Assembly: GCF_900112255.1 (NCBI RefSeq)
Contig: NZ_FOLE01000001.1
Location: 62,001-126,000, forward strand
Origin: Flexibacter flexilis DSM 6793
Lineage (GTDB): Bacteria; Bacteroidota; Bacteroidia; Cytophagales; Flexibacteraceae
Reading direction: 5' to 3'
Length of the DNA stretch: 64,000 nucleotides
The position numbers were made by a program, and so were the translations under genes. Each line of letters begins with the position of its first letter. The first letter of the stretch is position 1. Positions 34,258 to 45,084 of the stretch are shown in pieces. The notes below the pieces were generated by a model. That model had not been told where the DNA came from, did not search any database, and saw only the letters and a list, made by a program, of their open reading frames with translations.

Positions 34258-34513
34258 GTGTTTTATGGCAGAAAAAGTTTGTGGGTCTTTATTGAAGAAT
34301 AATAACAATACAATTATTGTATCCACTGCAAACAAGTGTAACTTTTTTATATAAAAAAAATATTTTATTTGTACTATAAACTTATATCTTGCACATAGTT
34401 AGTCATATGACAATATCATTCAGTATTTTTTTGAGTGATAGATGCCCCTTGCCTCAAAACTATTTCTACCAAAGAACACAAATCAAGTAAAACCAAACAC
34501 ACCTCCATCTACT

Positions 34514-37500
34514 ATGAAATTACCTGTTACCTTCATTACACGTAAGCAATTAGTTGCATTTCAAGAAATCCTACAAGAGCGCGACCGTTTACAAGCTGAA
34601 ACGGAAAAGGCCTCTGAGTTTATACAAAACATCAAGCAAGGAAAATTAGATGGGTCTTTTGACATAGAAGACCAGCAGCTAGATAGTGGCTTGGCTGCTG
34701 CGCTCATCAGCATGCAAGAGCAGATGCGCGATATTGCGCAATCAGAAAAAGAACGTAACTGGGCTACGGAGGGTCTGGCTAAGTTCGTGGATATTCTGCG
34801 CTCCAACAACGAGAATATCGAAATGCTCTACGACAATATCTTGGATAGCCTTGTCAATTATATTGGGGCAAATCAAGGTGCCTTGTTTTTGGCATTGCAC
34901 GAATCCAAAAGAGCAAAAACTGCCGAAAGAAAAAACGAGGCGGCTGACTCAGACGAGGAACTAACCGAAATCGAAGACGATATTTATTTGGAGTTGGTGG
35001 CGTGCTATGCCTACAGCAAAAAGAAGTTTTTACACAAACGTTTTGATATAGGCGAGGGATTGGCTGGTCAATGTTATTTGGAAAAAGATGCCATTTTCTT
35101 GACCGACGTGCCGCCAAGCTACGTGAATATTACCTCTGGTTTGGGCGAGGCTACACCGCGTTGCGTGTTAATTGTGCCGCTCAAGCTCAACGAAAAAATC
35201 TTTGGGGTACTGGAACTGGCCAGTTTCGAGATATTACCAAAATTCAAACGAGAGTTTGTAGAAAAATTGGGCGAAAGTATCGCCTCTACGATTTCTAATG
35301 CGCAGACCAACGAACGCACACGCCAATTGCTGCATATATCGCAGAAGCAGGCCGCAGATATGCGTGCTTCCGAAGAGGAAATGCGCCAAAACATGGAGGA
35401 ACTAACTACCACTCAAGAAGATATGCGCCGCAAAGAAATGGAATTGGCGGGCATGTTATCAGCCGTAAATTCTACACTCTGCACCGCAGAATTTAATATG
35501 CAAGGCTATGTGCTGGAGAGTAATCGGGCTTTTATGGATTTGCTGGATTATTCTTTGGAAGAAATAAAAGGCAAACATCATCGAATCTTCTTATCTAAAA
35601 GCGAGGCGGCTTCCGCAGATTATGCGCATTTCTGGAAAGAATTAGCCGCAGGCCACCAACAACATGGCGACTTTGTAAGGGTAAGCAAATACGGGGAAAC
35701 TCGTTGGCTAAAAGCTTCTTATACGCCCGTTCCAGATACAAATGGGCACTATTATAAGGTAATTAAACTCGCACAAGACATTACAGAACGTAAACTGGCC
35801 GAAATCGAAAGCAAACGTCTTTCGCTGGTGGCCAATAACACGGACAACTCTGTTGTCATTAGCGATGCCGATGGCCGTATTGAATATGTTAATTCGGGTT
35901 TTGAGAAAATGACGGGCTATAAATTGGCCGACGTGATTGGTAAAAAACCTGGTGCTTTTTTGCAAGGCGAACTCACGGACAAGAGTACAGTGGCGCGTAT
36001 TCGTCAGAAAATTACAGCACGTGAGTCTTTTTATGAAGAAATATTAAACTACGATAAAAACGGTCAAACGTACTGGATTTCACTTTCGGTAAACCCTATT
36101 TTTGATGAAGAAGACAAGCTCGTTAATTTTGTAGCGGTACAGACCAATATCAACAAAACCAAACAACAAGCCTTAGATTATCGCGGAAAATTACAGGCCA
36201 TAGACCGTGCTTATGGCGTAATGGAATTTGACCCAGAAGGCTATATTCTGGATGCAAACGAATTGGTTTTGCAGTTGCTGGGCTACGACATTGTTGACCT
36301 GAAAGGCCGACACCACCGTATGCTTGTCAAAGAAAAAGAAGCCCGTTCGGAAGCCTATAAAATCTTTTGGGACGCATTAGGCAATCGGGGCGAATATATA
36401 TCGGGGGAATATTGCCGCCTTACCAAAAATGGTGAAGAAGTTTGGTTTAAGGCCACTTATAGTGCCATATTGGGCTTAGACGGCAAGCCTGCCAAAATTG
36501 TTAATTATGTGCAAGATATTACGGAAGCTAAGAAATTAGCCATTGATATTCAGCTCCAAAACGAGCAAATGAAGGCGCAAGAAGAAGAACTTCTCCAGAA
36601 TATGGAAGAAGTAAAAGCCATTAATGATGAGGTGAAACGCCAAAGTACGGAGCTTCGTGGTATCAATAACGCGCTTAACAAAAACTTGTGCATTATTGAA
36701 CTGGACTCTAATGGTATGATCATTAATGCCAACCCTAATTTCCTAATGCTATTTGGCTATTCTTTGGAGGAACTTAAAGGCAAGCACCACCGCACTATTG
36801 TGTTTCCTGATTATGCCAAAAGCGAAGAATACATTCAGTTTTGGGCAGATTTGGCACGCGGACAAGCACGCGTTGGCGAAATGAAACGCATGGCGCGTGA
36901 TGGCTCTGAAATTTGGGTGAGTGCTTCTTACAATGCCATTCTGGACGACAATGGCCGCGTAGTCAAAATCGTTAAGTTTGCGCAAGACATCACGCAACGC
37001 AAGCGCATGGATTTGGATACCTCCTGCAAACTGGATGCCGTACAACGTGCGTATTGTGTTATTGAATTTGACACAAAAGGGAATGTCCTGACAGCTAATG
37101 AGAATTTCCTGAATGCGATGGGGTACATGTTACACGAGATTCAAGGCAGACATCATAGTATGTTCCTCACCGAAAACGAGCGTAACGATGACCGTTATTT
37201 ATCTTTTTGGGAAAGATTAGGAGAAAAAGGACAGTTTGTAATAGGAGAGTTTCAGCGTGTAACCAAAAGCGGCGAACACGTTTGGCTCAAAGCTACTTAC
37301 AGCCCCATTCTTGACCTTGACAAAAAGCCTTATAAGGTCGTAAAATATGCGCAAGACATCACCGCCGCCAAGCTACTGGAGTTTGCCAATCATCAGCAGG
37401 TAGAAGAGATTCGGGCTCAAGAAGAAGAGTTGCGCCAGAACATGGAAGAGTTGCAGGCCATCAACGAAGACGTAGAACGTCAAACCCTAGAGCTACGTGC

Positions 37501-38701
37501 CTTATCTCAAGCACTGAATACAACCGTAGCTACGATAGAATTTACGCCAGAAGGAAAAGTACTGACAGCCAACGAAAACTTTCTACAACTCATGGGCTAT
37601 CGCCTCGAAGAGATACAAGGCAAGCCACATAAACTTTTTGTAGATGGAGATTATGCGCGTAGTGGCGAATATGCTAAATTTTGGGATGATTTGGGATTAG
37701 GAAAAGCTCAAATTGGGGAAATGCGACGCATCACAAAAAGTGGTGCGGAAGTTTGGCTCAGTGCTTCTTATACGCCCGTAACCAATGACGAAGGCCAGAC
37801 ATTAAAGGTTATTAAATTTGCTCAAAATATCACAGACAAGAAAAAAGAAGCCCTTGATGTAAGTTGCCAACTCTCGGCCATAGACCGCGCCTATGCCATT
37901 ATCGAATTTGATACGGATGGTAACATCCTGAAAGCCAACGAAAACTTCTTGGAGGTAATGGAATATAGCCCTGTGGAAATTCAAGGTCGCCACCACCGTA
38001 TGTTTATCAGCGAAGCAGAACGTAACTCAGAAGAATATCGTGCGTTTTGGGAGCGTTTGGGCAAACGTGGAGAATTTATAGAAGGAGAATTTAAGCGAAT
38101 CAAAAAAGCGGGAGAAGTAGTTTGGCTCAAAGCCACCTATAACCCGATTCTGGATTTAAAGGGACACCCCTACAAAGTGGTAAAATATGCACAAGATATC
38201 ACTGCTTCTAAGCAATTAGAAATACAAGCCCAACAGCAATTTGAGGAGCTACAAGCCCAAGAAGAAGAATTGCGCCAAAATCTCGAAGAATTGGAGGCGA
38301 TTCAGGAATCAGTGTTGGAAAAGCAACGTGAAGTTGAAAGCATTGCACGCAAGTACGAACAGATTTTGGAGGGTTGTGCCGATGCAGTGGTAATGATAGA
38401 CCAAATCGGCACTATATTGTTCTTCAACGCCTCCGCCGAAAGTCTGTGGGGCTACCAAAGACAAGAGGTGATAGGACAAAACGTGCGTATGCTGATGGGA
38501 ACAGAACATTCTATCAAGCACGATAGCTATTTGCAAAACTACCACCGCACAGGTCAAGCCAAAGTAATCGGCAAAGGTCGCAAGGTAGATGCTTTGCGCA
38601 AAGATGGTAGCAGCGTTCCAATTTTACTTACATTGAGTGAAGCTAAAATATCTGATAATGAGTCTATATTTACATCATTTATCAAAGATTTACGCGAGTA
38701 A
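34514..38701 (+). CDS. GAF plus eight-PAS sensory protein without an output domain
   Basis: A soluble protein of 1395 residues. A GAF domain spans about 100-265 (ANQGALFLALHE ... FDIGEGLAGQCYLEKDAIFLTDVP ... GVLELASF). Eight PAS domains follow from about 310 to the end, most ending in the PAC motif Y-K-V-V-K-Y-A-Q-D-I-T as in heme/FAD PAS proteins. QAQEEELRQN-type coiled segments separate some of them. Modules PAS4-PAS5 and PAS6-PAS7 are tandem duplicates with an exact 840-bp period (matching coil positions at 36575, 37415 and 38255). No kinase, GGDEF, EAL, HTH or methyl-accepting domain follows PAS8. It may be a scaffold or input subunit. An upstream ATG at 34442 would add 24 residues; the start is uncertain. 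Confidence 0.8.
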   Translation: MKLPVTFITRKQLVAFQEILQERDRLQAETEKASEFIQNIKQGKLDGSFDIEDQQLDSGLAAALISMQEQMRDIAQSEKERNWATEGLAKFVDILRSNNENIEMLYDNILDSLVNYIGANQGALFLALHESKRAKTAERKNEAADSDEELTEIEDDIYLELVACYAYSKKKFLHKRFDIGEGLAGQCYLEKDAIFLTDVPPSYVNITSGLGEATPRCVLIVPLKLNEKIFGVLELASFEILPKFKREFVEKLGESIASTISNAQTNERTRQLLHISQKQAADMRASEEEMRQNMEELTTTQEDMRRKEMELAGMLSAVNSTLCTAEFNMQGYVLESNRAFMDLLDYSLEEIKGKHHRIFLSKSEAASADYAHFWKELAAGHQQHGDFVRVSKYGETRWLKASYTPVPDTNGHYYKVIKLAQDITERKLAEIESKRLSLVANNTDNSVVISDADGRIEYVNSGFEKMTGYKLADVIGKKPGAFLQGELTDKSTVARIRQKITARESFYEEILNYDKNGQTYWISLSVNPIFDEEDKLVNFVAVQTNINKTKQQALDYRGKLQAIDRAYGVMEFDPEGYILDANELVLQLLGYDIVDLKGRHHRMLVKEKEARSEAYKIFWDALGNRGEYISGEYCRLTKNGEEVWFKATYSAILGLDGKPAKIVNYVQDITEAKKLAIDIQLQNEQMKAQEEELLQNMEEVKAINDEVKRQSTELRGINNALNKNLCIIELDSNGMIINANPNFLMLFGYSLEELKGKHHRTIVFPDYAKSEEYIQFWADLARGQARVGEMKRMARDGSEIWVSASYNAILDDNGRVVKIVKFAQDITQRKRMDLDTSCKLDAVQRAYCVIEFDTKGNVLTANENFLNAMGYMLHEIQGRHHSMFLTENERNDDRYLSFWERLGEKGQFVIGEFQRVTKSGEHVWLKATYSPILDLDKKPYKVVKYAQDITAAKLLEFANHQQVEEIRAQEEELRQNMEELQAINEDVERQTLELRALSQALNTTVATIEFTPEGKVLTANENFLQLMGYRLEEIQGKPHKLFVDGDYARSGEYAKFWDDLGLGKAQIGEMRRITKSGAEVWLSASYTPVTNDEGQTLKVIKFAQNITDKKKEALDVSCQLSAIDRAYAIIEFDTDGNILKANENFLEVMEYSPVEIQGRHHRMFISEAERNSEEYRAFWERLGKRGEFIEGEFKRIKKAGEVVWLKATYNPILDLKGHPYKVVKYAQDITASKQLEIQAQQQFEELQAQEEELRQNLEELEAIQESVLEKQREVESIARKYEQILEGCADAVVMIDQIGTILFFNASAESLWGYQRQEVIGQNVRMLMGTEHSIKHDSYLQNYHRTGQAKVIGKGRKVDALRKDGSSVPILLTLSEAKISDNESIFTSFIKDLRE

Positions 38702-41270: not shown

Positions 41271-41657
41271 ATGAAAAAAGATACTTTGATTTTTGTAGCC
41301 GACGATGACAGGATCATACTTACAGCGATTACGCGTTATTTACACAAAAAAGGCTTCACGAATATCAAATCGTTTACAAATAAGCAAGATAGCCTTCTTT
41401 CTTTAGTGCAAGAGCAACCCCAATTATGTATTATTGATTATCTGCTAGGGGAAGAAAATGGCTGGGAGCTTTGCAAAGAAATACAACATATCGTCCCGAC
41501 GGCAACCATGGTACTGCTTAGTGGCCAAGACGATGTGAGGCTGACGTTTCAGTTTATCCGTGAAGGACTTCGGCACTACATTGCCAAAGATGAAACAATG
41601 TTTGATACGTTAGATGAGATTTTGCAACAACTCTGTTTTTACAATACACACAATTAA
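41271..41657 (+). CDS. single-domain response regulator
   Basis: A 128-residue receiver domain without an output domain. FVADDDRII gives the acidic pocket, Asp56 in CIIDYLLG is the phosphoacceptor, Ser in MVLLSGQDD and Lys in YIAKDE complete the active site. It lies 29 bp after lnt and 7 bp before the hybrid histidine kinase gene, so it is the likely phosphorelay partner of that kinase, receiving phosphate from its HPt domain. The output must be through protein contact (CheY/Spo0F-like). Confidence 0.88.
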   Translation: MKKDTLIFVADDDRIILTAITRYLHKKGFTNIKSFTNKQDSLLSLVQEQPQLCIIDYLLGEENGWELCKEIQHIVPTATMVLLSGQDDVRLTFQFIREGLRHYIAKDETMFDTLDEILQQLCFYNTHN

Positions 41658-41664
41658 CTAACCA

Positions 41665-44600
41665 ATGATCGAAGAACAACAATATTCACCGTCGAGCCGC
41701 ATAACCAGAGCGTATATTTTGAGCTTTCTGTTGATCGCTTTCTTTGCGCTATGTGGTTGGTGGTTGGTGGAGTATTTGTTGAGCAATACGGCACACGATA
41801 GCACTGTTATCAATATTGCGGGGCGGCAACGAATGTTAAGCCAAAGCATTACTAAAAATATTGTTTTATTAAGCCAAAATGCAGAAAATAATTTCCTCAT
41901 AACCAACGAACTAGCAACAAACACAAAGCAGTTTAGGAAAGCACATCAATTATTAACTCAAGATATGCCTCATTCCTCTGCAGAAATCCGTGATTTATTC
42001 AGGCAACTTGAGTCAAATTATCAGGTCATTAGTAAATGTGCCGAGCAATCAATACAAAATCCCAAGCAGGCAGGACAGGTTTTACAAAAAATATCGCAAG
42101 CCGAAAAACCTTTTTTGCGAACAATGGACTTGATTACGAACCAATTCGAGCGGGACAACAAAATAAAGTTAGAAAAGCTCGAACGTATCGAATTACTGTT
42201 ATTGGTCATTACATTGGTTACTATTGCCTTTGAGGTGGGCTATGTTTTTTATCCATTAACCAAAAAATTAGATATATATTGGAGAGAAATAATCTTATCC
42301 AACCACAAACTCAACAGCATCAATACGGAGTTGGAGGAAATGACCAACGCCCAAAAAGAAATGGAAGTGTATATCGAAAATACACTTTTACAACTTCAGG
42401 CCGTGTTGGATTCGGCTACCGAAACGCTGATTATCAGCACTAATTTGCGTGGGGAAATTATTTTTTTTAATAAAGGGGCTGAAAAAATATTGGGCTATGA
42501 GGCAGAGGAAATTATACGGAAACAAACGCCTCTTTTTTTCCATGACACCAAAGAAGTTGCCATTTATCGGCGTGAACTGGAAACTGAATTTGACAAAACC
42601 CTAACAGCCCTAGATACACTTACTTTTAAAGCCAAACAAGGCGTACCCGAAAGCCGTACATGGACATACAAAGCCAAAGGAGGACGCAACGTTTTGGTGA
42701 GGGCTAATATTACCTGTATTTATAACGCCCAAGGCAGACTGACGGGATTTTTGTGGAGTGGCTCGGACATCACCGACGACCACAAAACCAATATTGCTTT
42801 AGAAGCACAACAAAAACTTATTTCGGCCATTACCGAAACAATGCCCGACATTTTGTATGTATTTGACATTCAAACGAAATCAGCCATTTACATTAACCAA
42901 GAAGTAAAAAATATTTTGGGCTATGAGCCGAAGGATATTTTGGAAATGGGTTCTGCCATGACCGAAACCATTATCTATTCGCAGGACTTGTACCTGATGC
43001 TCAAGCATTACAGACTTTTGGGAAAAAACAGGCATATCAATACCAGAGGCTTTAATGTGCGAGCTGTCCATAAAAAAGGCGATGTAATTTGGTTGCATTT
43101 GCGCAGCGCGGTGTTTTCTAAAGATGTCAACGGCAACGTAACCCAAATTATTTGCATTGCCCAAGACATCAGCGAAATGCAATGGGCCGCCGAACGCCTC
43201 GCCGAGCGCGAACAACAATATCGTTTGGCTCTGTCTGCGGCAAATGATGGCATTTGGGATTATAACCTCAAAACCAGAGAGTTATATTTTTCTCCGCGTT
43301 GGAAAGAAATGTTGGGCTACACAGAATCCGAATTTCCGAATACTTATGAGGCTTGTTTTGCTGCGCTTTTGCCCGAAGATGCTGAATTTGCAATACAAAC
43401 ACTCACCGACTTTTTGAAAGGCAATAGCCCCGACTTTAAAATTATTACACGATTCAGACACAAAGACGGCTCTGTGCTGCATATTTTGGCGCGTGCCATT
43501 GCTATCCGCGACGAGAGTGGCCGCACGATTCGCGCCATCGGTGCTAACACAGATATTACGGAAGTAAAACGCACAGAAGAAGCACTCATTAAGGCCAAAG
43601 AAGAAGCTTTGCAACTAGCCAAAGCCAAACAAATGTTCCTCTCGACCATGAGCCACGAGATGCGAACGCCGATGAACGCCGTCATTGGGATTACGCATTT
43701 GCTCCAACAAGAAAACCCGCAACCCAACCAGATTGAAAATCTCAAAACATTACGTTTTGCGGCTGAAAATCTGCTGGTTATCATCAACGATATTTTGGAT
43801 TTTAGTAAAATTGAGGCAGGCAAAATCACCTTTGATTCTTCGCCATTCAATATTCACGAACTTATTTTGGGAATTAAAAAATCATTTGATTATCAGGCCA
43901 ACGCCAAAGGAATTGAGCTTAATTATTTGATTGACCCAATGATTCCGCCAATGCTATTGGGCGACTCCGTTCGGCTGGGACAAGTGATTACCAATTTAGT
44001 AGGTAACGCCATTAAGTTTACGCAAGAAGGAGCTGTAAACATGTTGCTTACCTGCCAAAACAAAACAGACGATACAATTAACATTGAATTTGCGATAAGC
44101 GATACAGGTATTGGCATTGCCGCAGACCAACTCGACCATATTTTTGATAGCTTTACACAGGCCAGTTCGGACACAACCCGTAAATTTGGCGGTACGGGTT
44201 TGGGCTTGGCCATTACGCGCCGCCTTTTACAACTTCAACACAGCGATATTCTGGTAACCAGTGAATTAGGTGCTGGTTCTGTTTTTTCATTCAAACTAAC
44301 ATTTAGCGTGCATCATCAAAAAGAAAACGAAGCCAACACCCCAAATACAGAAATAGAAATTCCGTTGGAGGGATTACAAATTTTGTTGGTAGAAGACAAC
44401 GAAGTAAACCGTATGATTGCCATTAAGTTTCTCTCGCGCTGGGGCGTACAAACCGACTCCGCCGAAAATGGCATGATTGGCGTAGAAAAAGCCCAACAAA
44501 AGAAATACGACATTATTCTGATGGATTTGCAAATGCCCGAAATGGACGGAATCGAAGCCACACAACACATTCGGCAAGACGCTAATTGCCCCAATCAACA

Positions 44601-45084
44601 AACGCCCATTATTGCGCTGTCTGCTGCATCCATTGACGAGATAGCCGAACAAGTACAATCTTCGGCCATGAACGATTATATCAGTAAGCCTTTCAACCCT
44701 AAGGATTTGCGTAGCAAAATAACCCTCTACGCCCAAATAGCCATGACCAAAAACGTAATAAATACCGAACGCCTCACCGAATTTTCGGTCGGAAATCCGC
44801 AGTTTGTGAAGCAGTTGCAGAAATTATATTTTGATACTTTCTCCGAATTTGAACAAAAACTTTCCGCCGTTGTGGCCGAAAAAGATGCCAAACAAATTCG
44901 ATTTATGGCACACAAAATAAAACCTTCGGTCAAAATGCTTCAGATAGAAGGCTTTGAAGAGTTGGAAGAAGCCTTAGCCAATGCCATCGAACAAAACCCA
45001 GATTCAGAATTGGTAGAGCAGAAACACAAAGAACTCTGCACGCTTTGCCAAAAAGTAGTACAAGAACTGAAAGAAAGTTTATAA
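41665..45084 (+). CDS. hybrid histidine kinase with PilJ-like sensor, PAS, receiver and HPt domains
   Basis: 1139 residues. A transmembrane segment near 12-35 is followed by a PilJ-type periplasmic sensor (VINIAGRQRMLSQSITKNIVLL) and a second segment near 175-195. Three PAS domains lie at about 245-375, 385-505 and 515-640. The HisKA motif STMSHEMRTPMNAVIG carries His664; the ATPase domain shows NLVGNAIKFTQEG, DTGIGIA and GTGLGLAIT. A receiver with Asp954 (MDLQMPEMDG) and a C-terminal HPt domain with His1083 (MAHKIKPSVKML) complete the phosphorelay. The PilJ-type input in related kinases binds nitrate or small ligands. It forms an operon with the receiver gene 7 bp upstream. Confidence 0.9.
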   Translation: MIEEQQYSPSSRITRAYILSFLLIAFFALCGWWLVEYLLSNTAHDSTVINIAGRQRMLSQSITKNIVLLSQNAENNFLITNELATNTKQFRKAHQLLTQDMPHSSAEIRDLFRQLESNYQVISKCAEQSIQNPKQAGQVLQKISQAEKPFLRTMDLITNQFERDNKIKLEKLERIELLLLVITLVTIAFEVGYVFYPLTKKLDIYWREIILSNHKLNSINTELEEMTNAQKEMEVYIENTLLQLQAVLDSATETLIISTNLRGEIIFFNKGAEKILGYEAEEIIRKQTPLFFHDTKEVAIYRRELETEFDKTLTALDTLTFKAKQGVPESRTWTYKAKGGRNVLVRANITCIYNAQGRLTGFLWSGSDITDDHKTNIALEAQQKLISAITETMPDILYVFDIQTKSAIYINQEVKNILGYEPKDILEMGSAMTETIIYSQDLYLMLKHYRLLGKNRHINTRGFNVRAVHKKGDVIWLHLRSAVFSKDVNGNVTQIICIAQDISEMQWAAERLAEREQQYRLALSAANDGIWDYNLKTRELYFSPRWKEMLGYTESEFPNTYEACFAALLPEDAEFAIQTLTDFLKGNSPDFKIITRFRHKDGSVLHILARAIAIRDESGRTIRAIGANTDITEVKRTEEALIKAKEEALQLAKAKQMFLSTMSHEMRTPMNAVIGITHLLQQENPQPNQIENLKTLRFAAENLLVIINDILDFSKIEAGKITFDSSPFNIHELILGIKKSFDYQANAKGIELNYLIDPMIPPMLLGDSVRLGQVITNLVGNAIKFTQEGAVNMLLTCQNKTDDTINIEFAISDTGIGIAADQLDHIFDSFTQASSDTTRKFGGTGLGLAITRRLLQLQHSDILVTSELGAGSVFSFKLTFSVHHQKENEANTPNTEIEIPLEGLQILLVEDNEVNRMIAIKFLSRWGVQTDSAENGMIGVEKAQQKKYDIILMDLQMPEMDGIEATQHIRQDANCPNQQTPIIALSAASIDEIAEQVQSSAMNDYISKPFNPKDLRSKITLYAQIAMTKNVINTERLTEFSVGNPQFVKQLQKLYFDTFSEFEQKLSAVVAEKDAKQIRFMAHKIKPSVKMLQIEGFEELEEALANAIEQNPDSELVEQKHKELCTLCQKVVQELKESL

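Follow-up and report, generated by a model that had tools for sequence, protein, structure and literature searches.

What does a bacterial protein do that carries eight PAS domains and no recognizable output domain? The question is raised by a 1419-aa protein of Flexibacter flexilis DSM 6793, encoded in a 64,000-nucleotide stretch of contig NZ_FOLE01000001.1 (positions 62,001 to 126,000, hereafter the window). The original prediction had described it as growing by modules, each a coil followed by two PAS domains. We find that the protein belongs to a family of receptors that looks wired to chemotaxis methylation enzymes, in a bacterium that appears to have lost other chemotaxis machinery. With chances falling slightly short of even, we suggest that it is a chemosensory co-receptor, soluble and orphaned, with coils that serve as CheR and CheB sites. 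It reads as soluble and orphaned because neither it nor its orthologue in the relative G013 has a transmembrane (TM) stretch, and both genomes lack matches to methyl-accepting chemotaxis proteins (MCPs) and CheW. The suggestion starts from what is observed: the layout of the protein, its family, the operon links, the residues of a CheR and a CheB encoded in the C12 operon of the same genome, the conservation of coils at free ends and the decay of coils in genome G025.

A layout without an output domain

From the N-terminus, the protein consists of a HAMP-like region, a GAF domain, a first coil with a type-A PAS, the LOV-like PAS2 and a type-B PAS, two coil-A-B units and a final coil with PAS8 (Table 1). 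Pfam PAS_9 and TIGR00229 (the S-box model) recognize all eight PAS stretches. That the protein has no output domain, as originally predicted, is borne out: Pfam detects neither a kinase or cyclase nor a phosphatase or MCP domain, and of 26 NCBIfam matches the 25 listed include no equivalog close to its cut-off. No TM stretch was found, the top 19-residue hydropathy over the whole protein being 1.39. AlphaFold models the HAMP-like region as helices at residues 37-65 and 83-121 (2-30 and 48-86 in model numbering), connected over 17 residues; Pfam gave no HAMP match, and the name refers only to this predicted helix-connector-helix. Coil 0 lies in one helix at residues 267-345 (model residues 232-310), in a model with mean predicted local distance difference test (pLDDT) of 91 and predicted template-modelling score (pTM) of 0.63. 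PAS/LOV and multi-domain sensors predominate among Foldseek matches, with nothing on the coil. The original prediction overlooked the HAMP-like/GAF N-terminus, the split of a third module by a LOV-like PAS and the terminal FixL-type PAS, and its multi-site signal integrator is vague as worded.

A family of receptors that lack the MCP hairpin

Among the stretches taken from the F. flexilis genome, 18 open reading frames (ORFs) have the GAF module, the PAS protein included, and 15 of them carry the coil by a loose pattern (family consensus QEEEMRQNMEELQATQEEM). Pfam finds a SpoIIE end in one of the 18, encoded in the C12 operon, and sensor-type domains only in the other 17. Members of this Bacteroidota family are built from a HAMP-like region, a GAF domain and a coil, to which a varying set of PAS domains is added; several terminate 5-30 residues past the coil. 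Family matches reach 34 in one genome, among the matches listed. A TM-like stretch precedes the GAF module in 85 of 94 collected members; the 1419-aa protein has none.

The family resembles MCPs (PF00015) of the PAS type in its PAS sensors, in a coil with Glu pairs at heptad positions b-c, and in homologues linked to CheA, CheW, CheB and CheR genes. It differs in that the MCP signalling hairpin was found by Pfam neither in the 1419-aa protein nor in 59 selected relatives, 29 of which match HAMP. Strict MCP membership was considered and rejected, the PF00015 hairpin being absent from the protein and none exceeding the cut-off in the genome. The 59 relatives (alignment A1) were picked from 102 members, with near-duplicates, small GAF proteins and SpoIIE-type proteins excluded; the absence of SpoIIE from this alignment is by selection. 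Peptide patterns including EEEMRQNM were used to retrieve the 80 named loci, and invariant coil columns in A1 are therefore not evidence. Coil conservation was measured on loci from whole-genome searches: 94 non-redundant members, of which 87 were kept (7 with <25 aa after the GAF domain were dropped), or 82 without G025. The structure alignment (A2) holds 42 hand-chosen sequences.

Glutamate pairs at the methylation register

Among the 87 members, Glu occupies residues 312, 313, 319, 320, 326 and 327 in 75, 68, 69, 75, 77 and 73 cases, and conservation drops after residue 330. Heptad letters, assigned by hand from the hydrophobic positions 314, 318, 321 and 328 (d, a, d and d), place the pairs 312/313, 319/320 and 326/327 at b-c. 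With G025 set aside, 47 of the 82 members have three Glu/Gln b-c pairs, 24 have two, 6 have one and 5 have none; the 1419-aa protein has two heptad-spaced pairs at each of residues 312, 715, 995 and 1275. According to an excerpt of PMC6829392, the MCP methylation consensus is [ASTG][ASTG]xx[EQ][EQ]xx[ASTG][ASTG], with the methylated residue at heptad c of the pair, and sites departing from it are reported. Judged from the sequences, the coils may thus be methylated by CheR and demethylated by CheB.

Could the coil instead be a signalling-helix linker of a GAF/PAS dimer, its Glu pairs being ordinary exposed coiled-coil residues? We consider this improbable. It would fit a coil that lies between sensor domains, the placement of coil 0 in one continuous predicted helix, and the occurrence of the motif beside PAS domains in MCPs as well. 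However, the 17 coils followed by at most 80 residues match the other 65 in conservation (p = 0.58), which argues against a mere linker, and 60 of 94 family members have the Glu/Gln pairs three-fold, versus 18 of 694 other ORFs.

Besides Glu, strong conservation extends to R315, N317, T324, Q325 and R330, a pattern that resembles a binding face. The coil might then be a docking surface for another conserved partner (for example the SpoIIE-type sibling, an unannotated protein like X202 of the operons, or other receptors), itself unmethylated, with CheR and CheB acting elsewhere. Conserved coils at free C-termini would suit docking, as would a CheR-adjacent homologue in G026 that retains Q, N, L, T and Q positions with its Glu pairs gone. 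We nevertheless regard docking as unlikely: the Glu pairs stand at the methylation register, and in G025 coil decay coincides with the loss of CheR and CheB, to which loss of the partner would have to be added.

Operons with chemotaxis and Sia genes

Genes of the family occur in two kinds of operon, type I with orthologues of the 1419-aa protein and type II with another branch of the family. Type I has the order MCP-CheW-(CheD)-CheY-CheB-CheA-X202-[receptor]-CheR in L041, L042, L043, L141 and L154; CheR and the receptor are swapped in L145, and in L142 the receptor is followed by CheY-CheA-CheW-MCP. For L042 and L142, Pfam matches bear out CheA, MCP and other assignments. The homologues of L041, L042, L141 and L142 belong to the PAS2 clade described below, and A and B PAS types are also present in the operon MCPs. 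At L140 (G013) the receptor is present without che genes. A protein of ~200 aa is encoded downstream of CheA at L042:9124-9732 (+), L141:10096-10722 (-), L145:6219-6827 (-) and L154:12525-13106 (+); the L042 copy has no Pfam match, and the protein may be CheC/CheX-like.

Type II has the order CheR-CheB-small GAF-GAF/SpoIIE-SiaB-SiaC at 10 loci, including the C12 operon of F. flexilis. These loci were chosen because the operon was visible, 7 via the receptor family and 3 fetched for CheR. SpoIIE is Pfam-confirmed in 10/10; SiaB and SiaC are identified by Pfam in the F. flexilis copy (SiaB-like DUF6272, and SiaC) and by similarity in the others. A coil receptor lies at most 1.3 kb upstream of CheR in six (L053, L062, L066, L093, L103 and L117). 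An excerpt of PMC7647112 describes SiaABC as a threonine-phosphorylation switch of Pseudomonas aeruginosa. The C12 operon shares with it the SpoIIE-type phosphatase, the SiaB-like DUF6272 protein and SiaC, and differs in that CheR, CheB and GAF proteins precede these; the 1419-aa gene lies outside the operon. Five type II operons (L026:3234-6434 (-), L066, L093, L117 and L053) also encode, after SiaC, a 1029-1066-aa protein with a common N-terminus, and the L026 copy has TerB and ABC-transporter domains by Pfam. Two CheR genes occur in one type II operon at L117:8397-12475 (+), where they flank the coil receptor, and at L053:11989-13761 (+).

CheR and CheB without MCP, CheW or CheA

The F. flexilis genome encodes two standalone CheR (among the matches listed, E 1e-5) and two standalone CheB, whose frames of 199-209 aa are too short for a receiver. 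At E 1e-5 we found no CheW-domain match and no MCP, three weak MCP matches staying below the cut-off. A CheA was considered and rejected, since CheA carries a CheW domain. The partner kinase sought in the original prediction exists in relatives, as the CheA of operons that bear orthologues; in this genome none was detected. The CheR of the C12 operon matches 5ftw at 1.3e-29 and the CheB matches 3sft at 7.2e-31; the residues that we take to be catalytic are conserved in alignments with these solved enzymes. Orthologues from che operons of G026 and G014 do have TM-like stretches. SpoIIE has nine matches in the F. flexilis genome (G000), two of them in ~593-aa ORFs (C5 and C3) that also match the PAS domains of the 1419-aa protein.

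Across 342 genomes of the order, CheR occurs in 91 of 92 family-bearing genomes versus 168 of 250 others, among the matches listed and with fusion proteins counted (Fisher test 3e-12, relatedness ignored). In 39 near relatives, also the scope of the CheB search, 43 standalone CheR genes are listed, 35 of them in family-bearing genomes. A family match lies within 10 kb of at least 14 of the 35, with 1.4 expected, these proximity counts being lower bounds; for 9 of these CheR genes the nearest match is one of the long ORFs typical of type II (873-1192 aa).

G025 is the sole family-bearing genome of the 92 without CheR among the matches listed, and CheB was likewise not found. Its coil identities are.32,.32,.21,.26 and.68, versus a median of.84 (Mann-Whitney 6e-4, relatedness again ignored), so that four of five coils are decayed. 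Its GAF identity is slightly lower (p = 0.058). The only other genome of its taxonomic family, 84% complete, has no matches.

A proposed mechanism and what weighs against it

We propose that the ancestor of the protein was an operon-borne partner of MCP/CheA arrays. The F. flexilis lineage would have kept it and enlarged it by duplicating the coil with its PAS pair, MCP, CheW and CheA meanwhile disappearing from the genome. What the GAF and PAS domains sense (oxygen or redox at the FixL-type PAS8) would show as changes in the coils. These carry the Glu pairs at b-c and would probably serve the free-standing CheR and CheB as substrates. In MCPs that signal to CheA, receptor methylation is known to act as a molecular memory; here it would provide adjustable gain without an MCP. 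The protein would act in trans by contacts of its coils, its target most likely being the GAF-SpoIIE sibling encoded beside CheR, CheB, SiaB and SiaC, and SpoIIE/Sia is the output that we infer. A wider form of the proposal is CheA-free sensory adaptation, in which Bacteroidota receptors that lack the hairpin would be reversibly methylated by CheR and CheB on a short coil that recurs (four times in this protein), and the methylation would tune a SpoIIE/Sia phosphorylation switch where other systems tune a chemotaxis kinase; we regard it as a tentative and, on balance, rather doubtful idea. Full-text searches of open-licence literature, along with passages of PMC7390727, gave no paper that by its title and abstract opening describes such a system.

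Several observations weigh against coil methylation, which is itself a prediction. By eye, the small residues that flank the pair in the methylation consensus are matched on one side at most. By pattern, three of five MCPs have the same coil motif N-terminal of the MCP domain, beside PAS, where it is compatible with either a methylation site or a PAS-associated coil. Outside G025, 13 of 82 coils fall under 0.55 identity, and the EE-5-EE spacing after the GAF domain is absent in 16 of 70 members, 4 of these being coil-less small GAF proteins. The closest homologue, from the G026 che operon and adjoining CheR, reads QEGETQQNLVELQRTQAEM (identity 0.63, zero in-register Glu/Gln pairs), and in G029 a member beside CheR has a decayed coil (identity 0.32, no pair); Glu pairs are thus not kept wherever CheR is present. 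A G033 operon member retains two Glu pairs, and the Marivirga-type operon members (L041-L043) retain all three. Within the stretches read, the che operons at L170, L182 and L231 lack a family receptor, and CheR is common in genomes without the family, as counted above. Family membership is the one tie of the 1419-aa gene to the Sia operon, its own neighbours being unrelated. The G025 comparison represents one genome, hence one event, with five proteins and the slightly lower GAF identity.

Sensing domains and history of the repeat

PAS8 aligns with FixL over nearly its full length, and its His1360 and Arg1380, separated by 20 residues, align with the His and the Arg of FixL. In the heme PAS of FixL these are the proximal and the distal residue. 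PAS8 is thus a candidate FixL-type heme PAS and putative oxygen or redox sensor. Unlike the FixL oxygen sensors, whose heme PAS it resembles in this alignment and its two residues, it belongs to a gene without a histidine kinase, as the last of eight PAS domains. The redox or heme likeness suggested earlier is therefore present, but in PAS8 and not in the K-Y-A-Q-D-I-T repeats to which it had been assigned. PAS2 is nearest to LOV domains in the PDB search, its likeness to LOV/NifL-like flavin PAS domains; it has KKPGAFLQ at the position of the LOV adduct-cysteine motif NCRFLQ and, lacking the adduct cysteine, is a putative flavin site only.

The coil motifs stand in register at residues 713, 993 and 1273 (window positions 36578, 37418 and 38258), with a spacing of exactly 840 bp. 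When the whole protein is compared with itself at successive lags, identity is highest at 280 aa (295 identities in 1139 comparisons, z ~28 versus a flat 6% expectation), and the unit of coil, PAS-A and PAS-B has a period of 280 codons without indels. The original claim of an exact 840-bp module with alternating PAS types (A being PAS1, 4 and 6 and B PAS3, 5 and 7, by eye) thus stands for spacing and alternation but not for sequence, modules 1 and 2 sharing 56.4% aa and 60.2% nt identity. Among 150 identical residues (Met and Trp excluded), 66 share a codon, with 64.6 expected. Synonymous sites are saturated; therefore the duplication is old, and a recent tandem duplication is rejected. Although the duplication is old, the module spacing is kept, as a coiled dimer would require. 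Tandem Repeats Finder, whose longest period of 500 is below 840, found no repeat. The fourth coil, also overlooked in the original prediction, is at residue 310 and lies 1209 bp upstream, which is 840 bp plus one 369-bp PAS; the first PAS pair is thus split by the inserted LOV-like PAS2.

When 96 PAS domains from 25 proteins are placed in one tree, PAS3, 5 and 7, the copies of type B, form their own clade (94/92), and the added pairs therefore arose in this lineage after it had separated from the relatives sampled. The original proposal that the protein grew as a PAS pair was duplicated is thereby upheld in all but its recency. The type-A copies have no resolved grouping, the tree being short of columns for its rows. 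PAS2 forms a clade (99/99) with single domains of G013, G014, G026, Marivirga arenosa and a Bacteroidota metagenome-assembled genome, so that PAS1-2-3 is an old shared core. Counting PAS copies in relatives, as had been recommended, gave the same eight-PAS layout in 0 of 24 other tree proteins; L047 has eight PAS domains in another arrangement. The repeat per se is ordinary PAS-module growth. A paralogue in the same genome, L024, has grown by coil-PAS units too (510 bp, 84.7% DNA identity). In the G013 orthologue (L140:7388-11215 (+)), two coil-PAS units of 489 bp are 96.7% identical in DNA, the FixL-type PAS having been duplicated very recently.

Such growth elsewhere and the lack of an output domain in the Pfam and NCBIfam scans would suit a stand-alone multi-PAS integrator or relic, its repeats enlarged by neutral drift and unconnected to CheR and CheB. 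We think this very improbable, since the 1419-aa frame is intact, the protein is constrained despite synonymous saturation, and homologues are conserved in operons.

Neighbouring genes and feature positions

A stand-alone response regulator followed by a hybrid histidine kinase lies at 41271-45084 (+), 3' of lnt (names assigned by eye). It was rejected as a local partner, lnt standing between the kinase pair and the PAS gene. A search of the window for che-like genes (ORFs of at least 90 aa, E 1e-8) gave a sole match, of this hybrid kinase to the MCP query. The window also holds a second family member (Table 1).

Table 1. Features of the 1419-aa protein gene and of a second family member, in window positions
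Feature	Position	Strand	Basis
Whole gene	34442..38701	+	1419-aa ORF; Pfam and NCBIfam scan; hydropathy; no TM stretch
HAMP-like helical region, residues 40-110	34559..34771	+	Homologous region across family; AlphaFold helices; not recognized by Pfam
GAF domain, residues 125-284	34814..35293	+	Pfam GAF_2 2.6e-11
Coil 0, SEEEMRQNMEELTTTQED	35333..35440	+	Within single predicted helix, residues 267-345 (AlphaFold)
PAS1, type A	35441..35809	+	Pfam, PAS tree
PAS2, LOV-like, KKPGAFLQ instead of NCRFLQ	35810..36178	+	PDB LOV matches; clade 99/99; orthologous in relatives
PAS3, type B	36179..36547	+	Pfam, PAS tree
Coil 1, QEEELLQNMEEVKAINDE	36548..36643	+	
PAS4, type A, module 1	36644..37012	+	Pfam, PAS tree
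PAS5, type B, module 1	37013..37381	+	Pfam, PAS tree
Coil 2, QEEELRQNMEELQAINED	37388..37483	+	
PAS6, type A, module 2	37484..37852	+	Pfam, PAS tree
PAS7, type B, module 2	37853..38221	+	Pfam, PAS tree
Coil 3, QEEELRQNLEELEAIQES	38228..38323	+	
PAS8, FixL-type, His1360 and Arg1380	38324..38698	+	PDB 1d06 4.8e-24, 1dp6 3.5e-21, with alignments
Second family member, 838 aa	57527..60043	-	GAF, two motif-bearing coils, PAS_4-type domains

Significance

The family and its association with CheR and CheB are the interesting part of this locus: a variant of chemosensory receptors for which methylation is the claim that can be tested. Should CheR and CheB act on receptors without the MCP hairpin, adaptation would be a portable module. 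The role of stand-alone CheR and CheB in genomes without MCPs would become testable, and a large family that Pfam mostly sees as GAF/PAS proteins would gain a function.

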